Shown: positions 695-5,166 of the stretch, piece after piece | Numbering within the stretch: position 1 is the stretch's first letter | How the letters are laid out: every line of letters starts with the position of its first letter | Origin: Lachnospiraceae bacterium | GTDB lineage: Bacteria; Bacillota; Clostridia; Lachnospirales; Lachnospiraceae | NCBI GenBank assembly: GCA_017480565.1 | Contig: JAFVAL010000015.1 | Location: 1-32,045 of the forward strand | Direction: 5' to 3' | DNA length: 32,045 bases | Translations under genes and position numbers: made by a program | Notes under the pieces: model-generated | Seen by the model: only the letters and a program-made list of their open reading frames with translations | Databases searched by the model: none | What the model was told of the DNA's origin: nothing

Positions 695-723
695 TTGACA
701 TCCGTAAAGTTTAGGAATATACT
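695..723 (+). promoter_or_regulatory. Sigma-A promoter of the cps-sortase operon
   Basis: TTGACA (695-700), a 17-base spacer and TATACT (718-723) give an almost perfect sigma-A core promoter. Transcription should begin near 730, leaving a leader of about 30 bases before the chosen ATG at 759. Confidence 0.85.
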
Positions 724-758
724 GGGAATGATTGAAAGAAATGAGGTGCATCATTAGC

Positions 759-1493
759 ATGAGCGAGAGATTAGATCTGGTAGATCTTCATACACATATT
801 CTTCCCGGTGTCGATGATGGATCCTCCTCCATGCAGGAGACGCTTGAGATGGTGGATCTTGCTTATCGCGAGGGTGTTCGCACAATCATTGCAACCTCTC
901 ATTTTGATCATGAACGCAGCTATGGCATTTATCCTTACCGTGAGATTTTTGCCAAGGTGCAGCAAGAAGTAGCTAAGAGCCACCCGGATATGCAGCTTTA
1001 TCTTGGAAGTGAGATCTTGTATACCTACGGTGTGCTTGATGATTTGGCATCGGGTGATGCTCTGACGATTGAAGATACGAAGTACATTCTGGTGGAATTT
1101 TACCCGGATGAACACTACAGTGAAGTCTTTGGAGCATTTCAGAAGCTGCGCAGAAGCGGGTACAAGCCGATTTTGGCTCATGTAGAGAGAGTGGATTGTC
1201 TCTGGAAACAGTGGGACCGTATGGATGAACTAAAGTCCATGCATATCCTGTTTCAGATGAATACAGAAAGTATCATTGGTTCAGTTTTTAACGGGCCTGT
1301 GAGGTACTGTAGAAAATTGATTAAAGAAGGATATATTGACTTTATGGGCACGGATATGCATAATAAGAAGAGCCGTGCGCCAGTCTATAGAGAAGCTGCT
1401 GCATGGATTGAAAAAGAATGTGGCAGGGAAGTCTGCGAAGACATTTGCAGGAATCATGCATTGGCCGTAGTGGAAGGGAAACGGCTTGCCTGA
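759..1493 (+). CDS. cpsB: CpsB/CapC-family PHP-type tyrosine-protein phosphatase
   Basis: The 244-residue protein belongs to the metal-dependent PHP-fold phosphatases (CpsB/CapC/YwqE) that dephosphorylate the tyrosine-rich tail of Gram-positive BY-kinases. It opens with DLHTHILPGVDDG (first metal-binding HTH at residues 11-13) and later shows TSHFDH, the strand ILAHVERV and GTDMHN, the ordered His and Asp ligands of the family. Length fits the usual 240-260. The ATG at 759 is chosen because AGGTG at 744-748 lies 10 bases upstream and it places the PHP motif at the usual distance from the N-terminus; upstream TTG (732) and ATG (741) in frame are possible. It is the first gene behind a strong promoter and is followed by its expected partners, the adaptor and kinase. 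Confidence 0.9.
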   Translation: MSERLDLVDLHTHILPGVDDGSSSMQETLEMVDLAYREGVRTIIATSHFDHERSYGIYPYREIFAKVQQEVAKSHPDMQLYLGSEILYTYGVLDDLASGDALTIEDTKYILVEFYPDEHYSEVFGAFQKLRRSGYKPILAHVERVDCLWKQWDRMDELKSMHILFQMNTESIIGSVFNGPVRYCRKLIKEGYIDFMGTDMHNKKSRAPVYREAAAWIEKECGREVCEDICRNHALAVVEGKRLA

Positions 1494-1532
1494 GACTGCA
1501 AAAGCCAAAGATAAAGGAGTTTGAGGAACAGT

Positions 1533-2276
1533 ATGGAGAATAAGTGGCAGGAAGACGAGATTGATCTGCTGGAACTTTTAGACGTCTTAAGAAGAAAGTT
1601 TCTGGTGATTCTTCTCGCATTGGTGCTTGGTGCCGGTGTGATGGCATCGTATACCATCTTTCTGGTAACGCCGATGTATGAGTCGACATCGATGTTATAC
1701 ATCTTAACCTCTTCAACGAGTATTACATCGCTTGCAGATATTCAGCTGGGTACACAGCTGACCAACGACTATGCGATCCTGGTGAAGAGTCGTACCGTTG
1801 TAGAGCCTGTGATTGAGAATTTAGGGCTGAATATGTCGTATGAGACTGCGAAGAATATGATTAGTATCGAGAACCAGTCCAATACGCGTATCATTTATAT
1901 CACAGTCAAGAGTGATGTGCCGCAGACGGCCATGAATATGGCGAATGAACTCGCTGCGGTCACGGCTGAGAAGATGGCGGAGGTCATGAAGACCGATGAG
2001 CCCAGTATTGTGGATCACGCCGTGCTTCCGACAAAGCCGGTAAGCCCGAGCCTTAAGAAGAATATTGCAATCGGTGCTTTAATTGGTGCCGTGCTTGCCT
2101 GCGCGGTCATCATTATCCAACATCTGCTGGATGATACGATTAAGACAAGCGAAGATGTGGATAAGTATCTGCAGCTGACCACCCTTGGTGTGATTCCGGT
2201 CAAAGAAGGCGAGCAGACGACGCGAAAGAAGAAAAAGAAGAAGGCACATCGTTCTTCTTCCAGAAAGGCAGGGTAA
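1533..2276 (+). CDS. cpsC: Wzz/CapA-type chain-length determinant and kinase adaptor
   Basis: This 247-residue protein has the Wzz/CapA topology: a short cytoplasmic N-terminus (EIDLLELLDVLRRK), a first membrane helix at about 22-45, an extracytoplasmic domain with a conserved MYESTSMLYI strand, and a second helix at about 177-197 preceded by the proline-rich PTKPVSPS. In Gram-positives the cytoplasmic C-terminus of this adaptor activates the separate BY-kinase encoded next door. Here that C-terminus ends in an unusual basic tract of one Arg and six Lys followed by AHRSSSRKAG (residues 231-247). The ATG at 1533 is preferred over TTG at 1521, which lies one base after the AAAGGAG ribosome site. 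The kinase gene begins three bases after its stop codon, so the two are translated together. Confidence 0.9.
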   Translation: MENKWQEDEIDLLELLDVLRRKFLVILLALVLGAGVMASYTIFLVTPMYESTSMLYILTSSTSITSLADIQLGTQLTNDYAILVKSRTVVEPVIENLGLNMSYETAKNMISIENQSNTRIIYITVKSDVPQTAMNMANELAAVTAEKMAEVMKTDEPSIVDHAVLPTKPVSPSLKKNIAIGALIGAVLACAVIIIQHLLDDTIKTSEDVDKYLQLTTLGVIPVKEGEQTTRKKKKKKAHRSSSRKAG

Positions 2277-2279
2277 GCG

Positions 2280-3005
2280 ATGATTGATATCGAGTTAAAA
2301 AACATCGAAGAACCTGATTTTCGAACCGATGAGGCGTATAAGCAGCTGAGAACGAATCTGATTTTCTGCGGCGATGAAGTAAAGACCATCGTTTTTACCA
2401 GCTGCCATGAGAATGAAGGTAAGTCAGAGGTTTCCTTCCAGGTGGCAAGATCCCTTGCAGAAGCCGGTCACAAGGTCTTATTGTTAGACTGTGATATTCG
2501 AAAGTCTGTTTTGACCTCGCGTTATGAAGTTGAAAAGAAGGTGGATGGCCTAAGCGATTTCCTCGCAGGCCGTGCAACTCTTGACGATATTTTGTGCAAG
2601 ACTAATATCCCGAATCTGTTGATGGTATTTGCAGGAACGAATGTTCCGAACCCGGCGGATTTGTTAGCAAGCAAGCGTTTTCCGCCGCTTCTTGAGGGCT
2701 TTAGGCAAGCACTCAATTATGTGATCATTGACTGCCCGCCACTGGGCGTTGTCATTGATGCCGCAGTCGTCGCAAAGTATGCGGACGGTGCGGTAATTGT
2801 TATTGAAAGCAACACAAATAGCTATAAAGTTGTACAGGGTGTTAAGGACCAGTTATCCAAGAGTGACTGCAGGATTCTTGGCGCAGTGATCAACAAAGCC
2901 GAACGTCAAAGCAAGGGCCGATATGGCGGTTATTATGGGGACTACTATGGCGGCTACGGCTATGGCAAAAGATCAGAAGCCTCACCCTCGAAAAGCAATG
3001 AATAG
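2280..3005 (+). CDS. cpsD: CpsD/CapB-family bacterial tyrosine kinase
   Basis: The 241-residue cytoplasmic BY-kinase carries a Walker A-like loop SCHENEGKS (41-49), a Walker A' strand LLLDCDIRK (67-75) and a Walker B strand YVIIDCPP (147-154), in that order. The EAYKQLRTNL helix (18-27) is the family's oligomerisation motif. Its C-terminus is a tyrosine cluster, GRYGGYYGDYYGGYGYGK (213-230), with seven tyrosines, the usual autophosphorylation site that the upstream CpsB phosphatase would reverse. The family phosphorylates itself and polysaccharide enzymes and works with the upstream adaptor to control chain length and export. The ENEGKS form of the P-loop differs from PGEGKS but keeps Gly-Lys-Ser. 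No polysaccharide synthesis genes follow, so its targets are not evident here. Confidence 0.92.
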   Translation: MIDIELKNIEEPDFRTDEAYKQLRTNLIFCGDEVKTIVFTSCHENEGKSEVSFQVARSLAEAGHKVLLLDCDIRKSVLTSRYEVEKKVDGLSDFLAGRATLDDILCKTNIPNLLMVFAGTNVPNPADLLASKRFPPLLEGFRQALNYVIIDCPPLGVVIDAAVVAKYADGAVIVIESNTNSYKVVQGVKDQLSKSDCRILGAVINKAERQSKGRYGGYYGDYYGGYGYGKRSEASPSKSNE

Positions 3006-3042
3006 CTAGGTTGCTATTATGGAGAAAGGAGGAGTTTTCACA

Positions 3043-3570
3043 ATGAAGAAAGCAAGACGTGTCGTCGCACTTTTATTAGCTCTGGTCCTGACATTAGCGA
3101 TCGGCGTTTCCGCATCCGCAGAGGACAACTATAAGCAGAAAGTTCTGGATTATATGGCATCTGAGGCAGCAAAGGTAAACGTTCCTGAGAGCAATGCAAG
3201 ATATCAGAACGCTGTATCGTCTGTGAAGAACTACACCGGCAATTTTACCGAGGAGCAGTACAACGCAGCGATCGCTGAGATCGATTATATCAGAGACCAG
3301 ATTGCTGGTAAGGGCAATTATGAAGGTGTTGCTGCTATGAACGCATCTGATAAGGAAGCATTCTTTAGTTCTCTTGGCAAACACTTAGAGGACAGCGCTG
3401 CAAAGGTTGGCGTTACCGTTGGTTGGAAGACCGATGGTCATGGTTGGGTGATCAACCCGATCAAGCAGACCGGTGCTAGCTTTGGTTCCACTCTTGTACT
3501 GATTGTTGCAGCAATCTCTGTACTTGGTGGTTGCGCTGTTTACGCTCGCAAGAAAGAGTTATTCGCATAA
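3043..3570 (+). CDS. Small secreted protein with sorting-signal-like C-terminus
   Basis: I do not recognise the family. The 175-residue protein begins with a clear signal peptide (MKKARR, a hydrophobic stretch, then SASA-ED, cleavage near residue 26). The mature part is about 110 residues, rich in Ala, Asn, Lys and Glu, probably helical. The end has the architecture of a cell-wall sorting signal: NPIKQTG at 138-144, a hydrophobic helix at about 149-169, and a final ARKKELFA. No LPXTG is present; KQTGAS is the nearest match to the LPQTGS-type signal known for some class D sortases. The ATG at 3043 is used because AAAGGAGG (3023-3030) sits ahead of it. A sortase gene starts five bases after the stop, which makes this its likely substrate. 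The anchoring is inferred. Confidence 0.75.
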   Translation: MKKARRVVALLLALVLTLAIGVSASAEDNYKQKVLDYMASEAAKVNVPESNARYQNAVSSVKNYTGNFTEEQYNAAIAEIDYIRDQIAGKGNYEGVAAMNASDKEAFFSSLGKHLEDSAAKVGVTVGWKTDGHGWVINPIKQTGASFGSTLVLIVAAISVLGGCAVYARKKELFA

Positions 3571-3575
3571 GGATT

Positions 3576-4280
3576 ATGCATCATAAAAACCGCTGGCCAG
3601 TGGCATACATTTGTATGCCACTTGGTTTTATCTTAATCGGAATTTTAATTGCTTTTGCGGGGCTGCAACCGGTCGGAAAGCAATTAGAAGGCGATCTGAT
3701 TATGTTGTTTCATTCCGGGGAAGGCTATTATATCGGTCAAGTGGAGAAAACTTTGGAAGATGAGACCACCACAGTGGTCAAAGAACCGACGACGCTTGAA
3801 GATCCGGAGGAAGACATCCTGCTGACACGCGATGAGCCGAACATCGGTGAACAATATGGAACGATCGCATGTGATCGAATTGGACTGAAGGCACCGCTTT
3901 ATTTTGGTGATAATGATGTAGTGCTTGACTGGGGAGCCGGTACATTTCCGGGATCCTGGATTCCTGGCTGTGGCGGGACGACGTTGATTGCCGGTCACAA
4001 CGGGACTTATTTTCATGTGTTAAAAGATGTGGAAGTGGGAGATGCTTTCACAATTGCAACAGAATATGGTGATTATGAATATATTGTCTCTGACTTTACG
4101 GTGGTAAATGAGACTGAGATAGAAGCTTGCAGGCTTGATTCGGACGAGGAACAGGTTGTACTTTATACCTGTTATCCGTTTTATCGCATCTCCGGTCGAA
4201 GAACCCAGAGATTCTTCGTTTATCTGGAAAAGGTATCCGGTCCGAGAATTGAGCTGGAGCATTATTTTCTGAAGGACTGA
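3576..4280 (+). CDS. Class D-like sortase
   Basis: This 234-residue membrane-anchored transpeptidase has an N-terminal helix (about 9-29), a variable acidic linker with a threonine run (57-88), and the catalytic barrel. The triad is visible: His141 in LIAGHNGTYF, Cys199 in LYTCYPF, and Arg212 in RRTQRFFVYLE. The TCYPF signature fits class D/E-type sortases better than class A or B. Sortases cut a C-terminal sorting signal and attach the protein to the wall or to another protein. The start at 3576 is the first in-frame ATG after the upstream stop; its AAGG overlaps that stop and has a short spacing, suggesting coupled translation. Position right after a secreted protein with a sorting-like tail points to a dedicated enzyme-substrate pair. 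Confidence 0.9.
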   Translation: MHHKNRWPVAYICMPLGFILIGILIAFAGLQPVGKQLEGDLIMLFHSGEGYYIGQVEKTLEDETTTVVKEPTTLEDPEEDILLTRDEPNIGEQYGTIACDRIGLKAPLYFGDNDVVLDWGAGTFPGSWIPGCGGTTLIAGHNGTYFHVLKDVEVGDAFTIATEYGDYEYIVSDFTVVNETEIEACRLDSDEEQVVLYTCYPFYRISGRRTQRFFVYLEKVSGPRIELEHYFLKD

Positions 4281-4289
4281 GGTGGCAAT

Positions 4290-5129
4290 ATGAGCGGCAA
4301 AAGAAAAGAACGTAAGGTTCTGATGGTGATTCTTGCTGCCATGATGGCCATCGAACTGACGGCACTTGGCGTTGCATTTGCAATCTTAGGCGGCGGAACC
4401 CTTCAGGCGCAGACAATGAGAAGACTCAACGAGAGTGATTACTATGCTCTGCAGACCGACGAACTGGTAAAGGAGACAGATGCCATTTCTGAGAGAGCAG
4501 GGATCACTGGCTTTTCCTCCAGGGTGACCTTCGAATCCGAAGATGTCACAAACGAGATCAGAGAGTTTACGGCCAATCGGATTAAGGGAAGCACCGAAGA
4601 GTTAAAGGAAGACGTTTTAAAAGAACAGCTGAAAGCAGATTTATACGCTTTTCTCGAGGAGAATCAGATCAGCAAAGGAAGGCTTGATATGTCAGCCTTG
4701 GATCTCTATACCATGCAGGTATTTCGCCTTTATGATCAGATCGTTGATAACTCCTTTGTCAATTATTATGCAGGACTTCGAAGCCGTGTTTCGCAGATTT
4801 GTCTGATTGTGATTCTTGCGATGGTCTTCTTTTTGATCGTCTGCATTTTGTTCATCTATGGTCTTGTGAAAATGCGACGGAAGACGATCTCTTATCTGAT
4901 TCGTGCACTGATTGCGGCGACTGTTTTGATCGGTGGTTCGTCGTTATATGGGTATCTATCCGGCTGGTATCAGACCATTCCTGTGACGCCTGCTTTTATG
5001 GCTGGATTTGCAAAGAGTTATATCAACGGTATCTTTGGTGCAGGAATGATTGTCAGTGGTGTATATATCGTTCTCATTGTGATCTGTGCAATTGCTATGC
5101 ATGTGATTTCACAGAAAAAATCAAAGTAA
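4290..5129 (+). CDS. Uncharacterised multi-pass membrane protein of the sortase operon
   Basis: I do not recognise a family. The 279-residue protein has a basic N-terminus (MSGKRKERK), a first membrane helix at about 10-35, an extracytoplasmic region of about 130 residues rich in charged amino acids and predicted helix, then three more membrane helices at about 169-192, 203-221 and 243-271, and a short basic tail (SQKKSK). No catalytic motif stands out. GAGGTGG lies a few bases before the ATG and the gap to the sortase is nine bases, so it is the last gene of the operon before a strong terminator. A role in presenting or positioning the sortase substrate is possible from context only. Confidence 0.75.
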   Translation: MSGKRKERKVLMVILAAMMAIELTALGVAFAILGGGTLQAQTMRRLNESDYYALQTDELVKETDAISERAGITGFSSRVTFESEDVTNEIREFTANRIKGSTEELKEDVLKEQLKADLYAFLEENQISKGRLDMSALDLYTMQVFRLYDQIVDNSFVNYYAGLRSRVSQICLIVILAMVFFLIVCILFIYGLVKMRRKTISYLIRALIAATVLIGGSSLYGYLSGWYQTIPVTPAFMAGFAKSYINGIFGAGMIVSGVYIVLIVICAIAMHVISQKKSK

Positions 5130-5136
5130 GTTGTAG

Positions 5137-5166
5137 TCCCGACTGCGCAGGCAGTCGGGATTTCTT
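5137..5166 (+). terminator. Strong terminator of the cps-sortase operon
   Basis: TCCCGACTGC (5137-5146) pairs perfectly with GCAGTCGGGA (5151-5160) around a four-base loop, followed by TTTCTT. It lies seven bases after the stop of the membrane protein gene. Confidence 0.9.

Follow-up and report, generated by a model that had tools for sequence, protein, structure and literature searches.

A 32,045-nucleotide stretch of DNA from Lachnospiraceae bacterium (assembly GCA_017480565.1, contig JAFVAL010000015.1; the window, below) carries an operon in which a CpsBCD tyrosine phosphatase-kinase module stands ahead of a trio of genes encoding a small secreted protein, a sortase, and a four-helix membrane protein. 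The trio is conserved in relatives and linked there to BY-kinase genes and sugar clusters, its substrates carry an unusual sorting signal, and an RNA hairpin lies near the start of the sortase gene. Our best explanation of the whole, which we put at about an even chance of being right, is that the CpsBCD switch and a three-gene wall-anchoring unit together serve the display of a surface polysaccharide, with the ratio of substrate to enzyme set by a terminator. The features concerned are as follows.

695-723, + strand: promoter-like site TTGACA-17-TATACT, matching the consensus at 11 of 12 positions
759-1493, + strand: cpsB, PHP-type tyrosine phosphatase (PF19567, CpsB_CapC, 234 bits)
1533-2276, + strand: cpsC, chain-length determinant and kinase activator (PF02706, Wzz, 56.4 bits, cut-off 25.5)
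2280-3005, + strand: cpsD, BY-type tyrosine autokinase with a Tyr-rich tail (TIGR01007, 206 bits, cut-off 108)
3043-3570, + strand: small secreted protein, probable sortase substrate, with a signal-peptide-like start, a C-terminal membrane helix, and a basic end
3460-3474, + strand: sorting motif IKQTG, in the linker before the membrane helix (family mostly [I/V][K/N]xTG)
3576-4280, + strand: sortase (PF04203, 70.2 bits), nearest to class D, then C
3585-3638, + strand: intrinsic-terminator-like RNA element with an A-rich stretch, a stem (3599-3622), and a U-run, from folding, covariation, and codon tests
4290-5129, + strand: four-helix membrane protein with a helical cap (model predicted local distance difference test, pLDDT, 91.4), no family match
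5135-5162, + strand: operon-end hairpin (-23.3 kcal/mol, z -5.7)

The six genes span 759-5129 on the plus strand and encode CpsB, CpsC, CpsD, the secreted protein (175 residues), the sortase (234), and the membrane protein (279). All are unbroken open reading frames (ORFs) separated by 39, 3, 37, 5, and 9 bases in order, and they are likely to be co-transcribed. PF19567, PF02706, PF13807, and TIGR01007 scored above their cut-offs within this single operon, as befits a CpsBCD BY-kinase module. A promoter scan returned 16 promoter-like sites compared with 7.8 in shuffled sequence, and 695-723 ranked best. In its reading frames, families, promoter-like site, and gaps of 3-39 bases the operon agrees with a preliminary description of this DNA, which had also spoken of one terminator. 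The hairpin at the operon end is present, with a weak T-run and not listed by the consensus terminator scan; the sortase gene itself contains another strong hairpin, at 3599-3622 and with a U-run, so that a single terminator is probably an incomplete account. The window is the entire contig C4, one of the 76 contigs that make up a 2.78-Mb genome, and since this contig starts about 0.7 kb ahead of the operon, the operon's upstream side is unseen.

To survey relatives, we searched a collection of bacterial and archaeal genomes with a profile of 16 sortases. Of the 359 relatives detected, the best 80 yielded 78 loci (L numbers below; G and C numbers denote genomes and contigs). These were scanned with hidden Markov models, and cps linkage was scored where cpsC or cpsD lay within 10 kb. 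The order substrate, sortase, membrane protein was found in 69/78 loci, and in 7/78 the membrane protein came after an ORF that fuses substrate and sortase, the trio being complete in 76/78; the other two had no membrane gene in the stretch. A relative of the small protein adjoins the sortase in 71 loci, in addition to the 7 fused. Loci L050-L052, with a sortase and no membrane protein, were excluded from the trio count, and substrate and sortase share a single ORF in L064, L073, L078, L079, L089, L093, L121, and L046. Trio-bearing records come from Lachnospiraceae, Ruminococcus, and Coriobacteria and include both isolates and metagenome-assembled genomes; Catenibacillus scindens and Lachnospira multipara are among the cultured bearers. 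A phylum-wide survey with the membrane protein was positive in 2 of 398 genomes, our own being one of them, so the unit is clade-restricted.

Genes for CpsC or CpsD accompany the trio in 42 of the 78 loci and do so in three arrangements: downstream on the same strand (24), divergent (14), and upstream, which is the arrangement of the window (4). For L121, counted among the 42, the link depends on a weak cpsD match (E 4e-12). Among 299 genomes of the family, the sortase was matched in 33 at E ≤ 1e-10, and 18, our own included, combined a match at E ≤ 1e-22 with the membrane-protein partner. A TIGR01007 kinase (E ≤ 1e-20) was present in all 18 trio genomes (17/17 without our own) compared with 148/281 of the others (Fisher p 1.6e-5), and kinase and trio sortase lay within about 5 kb of each other in 12 of the 18. 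A same-genus genome (G234, 83% complete) has neither trio sortase nor TIGR01007 kinase. The linkage of trio and cpsBCD is thus conserved, and the outcome that the preliminary description had named as fatal to its proposal, a trio unlinked to cpsBCD in relatives, did not arise. At L067 and L070 two trios stand about 4.5 kb apart, just one of which directly adjoins cpsBCD.

Bac_transf or CapD-type sugar genes were present within the fetched stretch at 29/42 cps-linked loci, compared with 0/36 of the others. In the 32-kb window itself, BLAST with 12 seed proteins detected no sugar gene, and the window does not qualify as a capsule locus. The absence reported earlier is therefore correct for the window, but it is a local feature: relatives do not generally carry a sortase in place of sugar genes, and the proposed pairing of trio and cpsBCD without glycosyltransferases holds as far as the pairing goes (42/78) and fails for the 29 loci with sugar genes. 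In our genome, contig C67 carries consecutive genes for a CapD-type enzyme, a DegT aminotransferase, a sugar transferase, three glycosyltransferases, a flippase, LicD, and a nucleotidyltransferase, and this known sugar cluster and the operon sit on different contigs. The genome's sole PF02706 match (E ≤ 0.01) and sole TIGR01007 match (E ≤ 1e-20) are both in the window. A 470-residue protein heads the sugar cluster (L139:4129-5541, G000:C67); it matches no Pfam family at E 1e-5 and looks by eye like a divergent chain-length protein.

By eye and in its structure model, the small protein has the usual anatomy of a sortase substrate, i.e., an export signal, a C-terminal motif, a membrane helix, and a basic tail. 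In the model (whole-model pLDDT 78.3), residues 30-121 form a helical domain with pLDDT mostly 85-95, a low-confidence linker (138-149) holds the motif, and residues 147-170 form the membrane helix. Judged from the substrate sequences, the sorting signal is unusual: it reads mostly [I/V]-K-x-T-G, and the usual proline is absent. Across 42 aligned members the motif never varies at its Thr and Gly, and 71 of the 73 separate substrates carry [I/V/A/M/L][K/N/R/H/Q/A]xTG in their final 75 residues, a recount that supersedes the automatic pick (61/73, with other T/S-G pairs in 9/73 and none in 3). Two of the 71 motifs, IAVTG and AALTG, are later picks, taken as lying behind VKATG of L092 and IKNTG of L115. 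None of the 71 has Pro at motif position 2, and P-x-T-G appears anywhere in the last 75 residues of only 1/73 substrates. The window protein scored 11.6 bits with the NCBIfam LPXTG model TIGR01167, under its cut-off of 15.9, and the same model matched 9/42 members at E ≤ 0.1.

The sortase passed the general sortase model (TIGR01076, 59.2 bits over 39.35) and fell below every NCBIfam class cut-off, with 83.8 bits compared with 165 for the class D model and 87.4 compared with 140 for SrtD; class B was absent from its model matches. Its catalytic H141 and C199 are invariant, and R212 is conserved in at least 90% of sequences (alignment A1). It probably anchors the adjacent small protein. For the membrane protein, the modelled fold tentatively resembles Lit, a profile of 18 sequences chosen by a Lit motif being part of the evidence. 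The Pfam Lit model found the true Lit gene of the genome and not the trio gene, and the catalytic His85 and His153 described for Lit in the portion of the source consulted (PMC8275575) have no conserved counterpart in the membrane-protein family. Across 43 members His is common in one column only, within a W-K-H-R loop in which the window protein has Arg; we place this loop on the cytoplasmic side, unlike the outside-membrane histidine pair of Lit.

The stem at 3599-3622 starts 23 bases into the sortase gene and has the stem-loop and U-run of an intrinsic terminator. In alignment A4 (38 sequences, 37 distinct) the 14-pair stem was 94.8% paired, and 8 pairs changed on both sides. The covariation score was 0.373 compared with 0.155 (standard deviation 0.012) after shuffling, with 0/500 shuffles as high, and at most 0.102 when the pairing was slid. 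Because these 38 sequences had been picked for pairing, the count was repeated on 67 distinct, unselected segments, which gave 0.309 compared with 0.169 (0/200 as high) and at most 0.193 when slid. Two pairs are instructive: pair 13-40 is UA in 13 sequences, AU in 10, CG in 6, GC in 5, GU in 1, and other in 2, and pair 16-37 is AU in 26, CG in 8, and GC in 3. Both fall on first codon positions, so that amino acids change in concert, and the element clearly shows base pairing acting as a constraint on two amino-acid positions together.

Synonymous-codon tests likewise establish the element. Keeping the peptide and redrawing codons by local usage (300 shuffles per native segment, 60 per control) gave a mean z of -2.33 for 69 native segments, compared with -0.15 for 771 control segments of neighbouring genes (p 3e-21) and -0.24 for 276 segments from other parts of the sortase gene. 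The 69 remained after omission of 12 of the 81 sortase records, in which the peptide could not be located. Nine records, mostly Ruminococcus, have a different peptide and a different stem sequence at almost the same place. A z below -2 was found in 0/7 fused genes compared with 43/62 others (p 6e-4), and the RNA model had no matches in fused genes. Run over 1.28 Mb of loci, this model gave plus-strand matches at sortase starts in 40/79 sources, 38 of them model members and two new (L071, L128), with weak plus-strand matches elsewhere at L083:1752 and L122:1044. In the 299 genomes its ten strongest places were sortase starts of trio genomes. Six weaker matches away from the trio were inspected: four lie just past gene 3' ends, like ordinary terminators, and one (L195) outside called genes near a contig end. 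The sixth (L192:2249-2305, G123:C5) lies within the 5' end of a gene that by eye encodes an ABC-importer permease and that immediately follows what is by eye its binding-protein gene; it encodes a similar peptide, LAYLALMP, and seemingly sets a ratio in an equivalent way. A LoaP antiterminator gene occurs in the cps cluster of L034 (5874-6497, minus strand; NF033641 over cut-off) and, by BLAST, in that of L085, and LoaP might override the internal terminator in the sortase gene.

The mechanism that we favour would run as follows. The small protein would be exported, and the adjacent sortase would cut its [I/V]KxTG motif and link it to the cell wall, as its anatomy, the synteny, and the fused genes suggest. 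By analogy with the M. gnavus srtB4 cluster, the anchored protein, aided by the four-helix membrane protein, might then display or hold a polysaccharide whose length CpsBCD controls, either as its acceptor or as a surface tether. The hairpin may terminate some of the transcripts shortly past the substrate gene, which would hold substrate above sortase. Of the earlier proposals, the one closer to the evidence has protein attached to a polysaccharide made elsewhere.

Several observations weigh against this explanation. The trio lacks cpsC and cpsD within 10 kb in 36/78 loci, many of them shortened by contig ends, and several full-length cps-free loci sit by eye amid housekeeping genes; the trio is thus an independent unit. 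The earlier interpretation was right that the link between BY-kinase and trio is real and conserved, but the missing sugar genes on which it built are a local matter and the trio also stands alone. Two substrates end in IKQTD (L101) and IKAVG (L132). Contigs C5 and C63 carry two more sortase-fold genes that score above cut-off, so calling the sortase dedicated depends on synteny and fusion. The genomic associations and the fused-gene comparison were computed without phylogenetic correction. SrtB4 of M. gnavus, judged via L154, is apparently a class B sortase accompanied by LCP, so its phenotype serves as analogy only. Anchoring, termination, the capsule role, and the membrane protein's function are inferred.

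The free-standing trios would suit a unit whose anchored product, a small adhesin or envelope protein, has nothing to do with capsule, the co-location of the unit with cps genes reflecting a shared surface neighbourhood or island. We take this alternative seriously and still think it unlikely, since the kinase co-occurs in 18/18 trio genomes compared with 148/281 others, the trio and cps genes meet in three arrangements, and a second sortase class is also found among cps genes. The same free-standing trios count against an explanation in which phosphorylation by CpsD and CpsB times the anchoring of the small protein by the sortase or the membrane protein, and polysaccharide is uninvolved. The tight operon, the lack of sugar-gene matches in the window, and cps-linked loci with long flanks that also lack them (L108, L110) speak for such kinase control, but the sugar genes at 29/42 cps-linked loci do not, and the M. 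gnavus data, in the part of the source consulted, point the opposite way, to a sortase serving capsule display (PMC13121745); we consider it quite improbable. Least probable of all is that CpsBCD are relics of a lost polysaccharide cluster with which the trio merely travels. Relatives L056, L059, and L066 do have the same genes together with sugar genes, but the six ORFs are intact, and they include the only CpsC and BY-kinase matches of a genome whose sugar cluster lies elsewhere.

The part of the favoured explanation that concerns the hairpin has its own rival, in which the hairpin acts as a DNA operator or stabilises mRNA 3' ends instead of terminating transcription. Its core, TGGCAT...ATGCCA, is palindromic, reverse-strand matches of the RNA model, lower in score, coincide with its plus-strand ones, and there is precedent, in the part of the source consulted, for U-tract pairing that also affects transcript stability (PMC9045158). 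The peptide moreover accounts for part of the U-run: 37/37 distinct hairpin sequences have at least 4 T among the 6 bases at the 3' end of the stem, which favours a terminator, but so do 15/30 segments without a stem, because the peptide favours such codons. Against an operator or stabiliser stand this U-run in every distinct hairpin, the covarying stem of up to 14 pairs, and the 4/6 inspected off-trio matches just past gene 3' ends, and we regard it as doubtful, with a real if minor chance. In 25/69 genes more than 15 of 300 synonymous shuffles matched the native stability, so the hairpin is not universal, and the model matched at the sortase start in only 10 of 18 trio genomes, 9 of these 10 being apparently model members.

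A bolder reading, which we think rather unlikely as a whole, takes the trio for a sortase system of a class not described before, with an [I/V]KxTG signal lacking proline, a single private substrate, and a Lit-like membrane partner. Such a system would make a capsule anchored through protein: a polysaccharide of CpsBCD-set length would be held by a sortase-linked carrier, and an RNA terminator in the sortase codons would fix the carrier:enzyme ratio. To our knowledge, how capsules are fixed to the cells of gut Firmicutes is poorly known. A 2026 study by Obana et al. found a sortase essential for capsule display, and its part consulted leaves the reason unexplained (PMC13121745). The trio supplies candidates for the carrier, the anchoring enzyme, and a partner, and the RNA element allows a ready test of substrate:enzyme ratio control.

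Other observations concern the surroundings. Genes for NfeD and SPFH proteins lie 3' of the operon and, by eye, general housekeeping genes beyond them; upstream, an ORF at 57-686 is C39-peptidase-like (PF13529, 22.6 bits, slightly under the cut-off of 24). Another sortase-domain ORF of our genome (L054:4904-6328, G000:C5) has by eye a signal-peptidase-like start and adjoins a 1461-residue protein. Larger proteins of 406-519 residues, by eye secreted and Ig-like, stand upstream of the trio at L040, L047, and L048. We rejected LCP as the usual partner of the trio: over 98 loci (L034-L053 and L056-L133, partly from the same genomes) a narrow profile found it in 2 and a five-sequence profile in 3 (L099, L114, L127). 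Our genome has two LCP genes, on contigs other than the window's.

At the level of titles and abstracts, our literature searches turned up no description of this trio. Class D and C sortases share the His, Cys, Arg domain with the trio sortase, which differs in scoring under the class cut-offs and in a substrate without the LPxT proline. The XrtA (exosortase A) exopolysaccharide systems of Gram-negatives couple a protein-sorting enzyme to a chain-length protein and a BY-kinase, and NCBIfam models of these systems gave sub-threshold matches to the cpsC and cpsD of the window. They use an exosortase, which is unrelated to sortase in fold, whereas the operon here has a classical sortase. The Actinomyces oris GspA/LcpA system, which we take to involve SrtA, offers another likeness. 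As far as the consulted part of the source goes, an LCP enzyme there glycosylates a wall-anchored protein, placing a glycopolymer on it (PMC6381275). That system uses an LCP enzyme, whereas only 3/98 of the loci fetched here have an LCP gene in the stretch.

For the hairpin, the closest parallel is in clostridial ABC importers, where internal terminators keep the binding protein above the permease, a stem-loop after the secreted-protein gene lowering the transcripts of its membrane partner; in the part of that report consulted such terminators were sought intergenically, whereas the hairpin here is internal to the following gene, and its covariation falls on first codon positions (PMC9045158). 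For the operon, it is the M. gnavus srtB4 cluster. According to the part of the 2026 report consulted, deletion of srtB4 loses displayed capsule and complementation restores it, LCP and tyrosine-phosphatase mutants of the cluster are likewise capsule-defective, and the sortase gene stands beside a BY-kinase/phosphatase pair as it does here, with sugar genes in the M. gnavus cluster (PMC13121745). At L154:8000-12674 we found an order that fits this cluster: cpsC, a class B sortase (TIGR03064, 186.6 bits over 153.75), LCP, a small protein with an SPETG tail, cpsB, and cpsD. A 19-pair hairpin lies there between cpsC and the sortase gene, and the membrane-protein profile found no four-helix partner. 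SrtB4 was rejected as an orthologue, since L154, whose gene order fits the published cluster, has a class B sortase. If L154 is M. gnavus or its kin, each of two sortase classes has CpsBCD and a small anchored protein as its partners, which supports a shared need of surface polysaccharides for an anchored protein.

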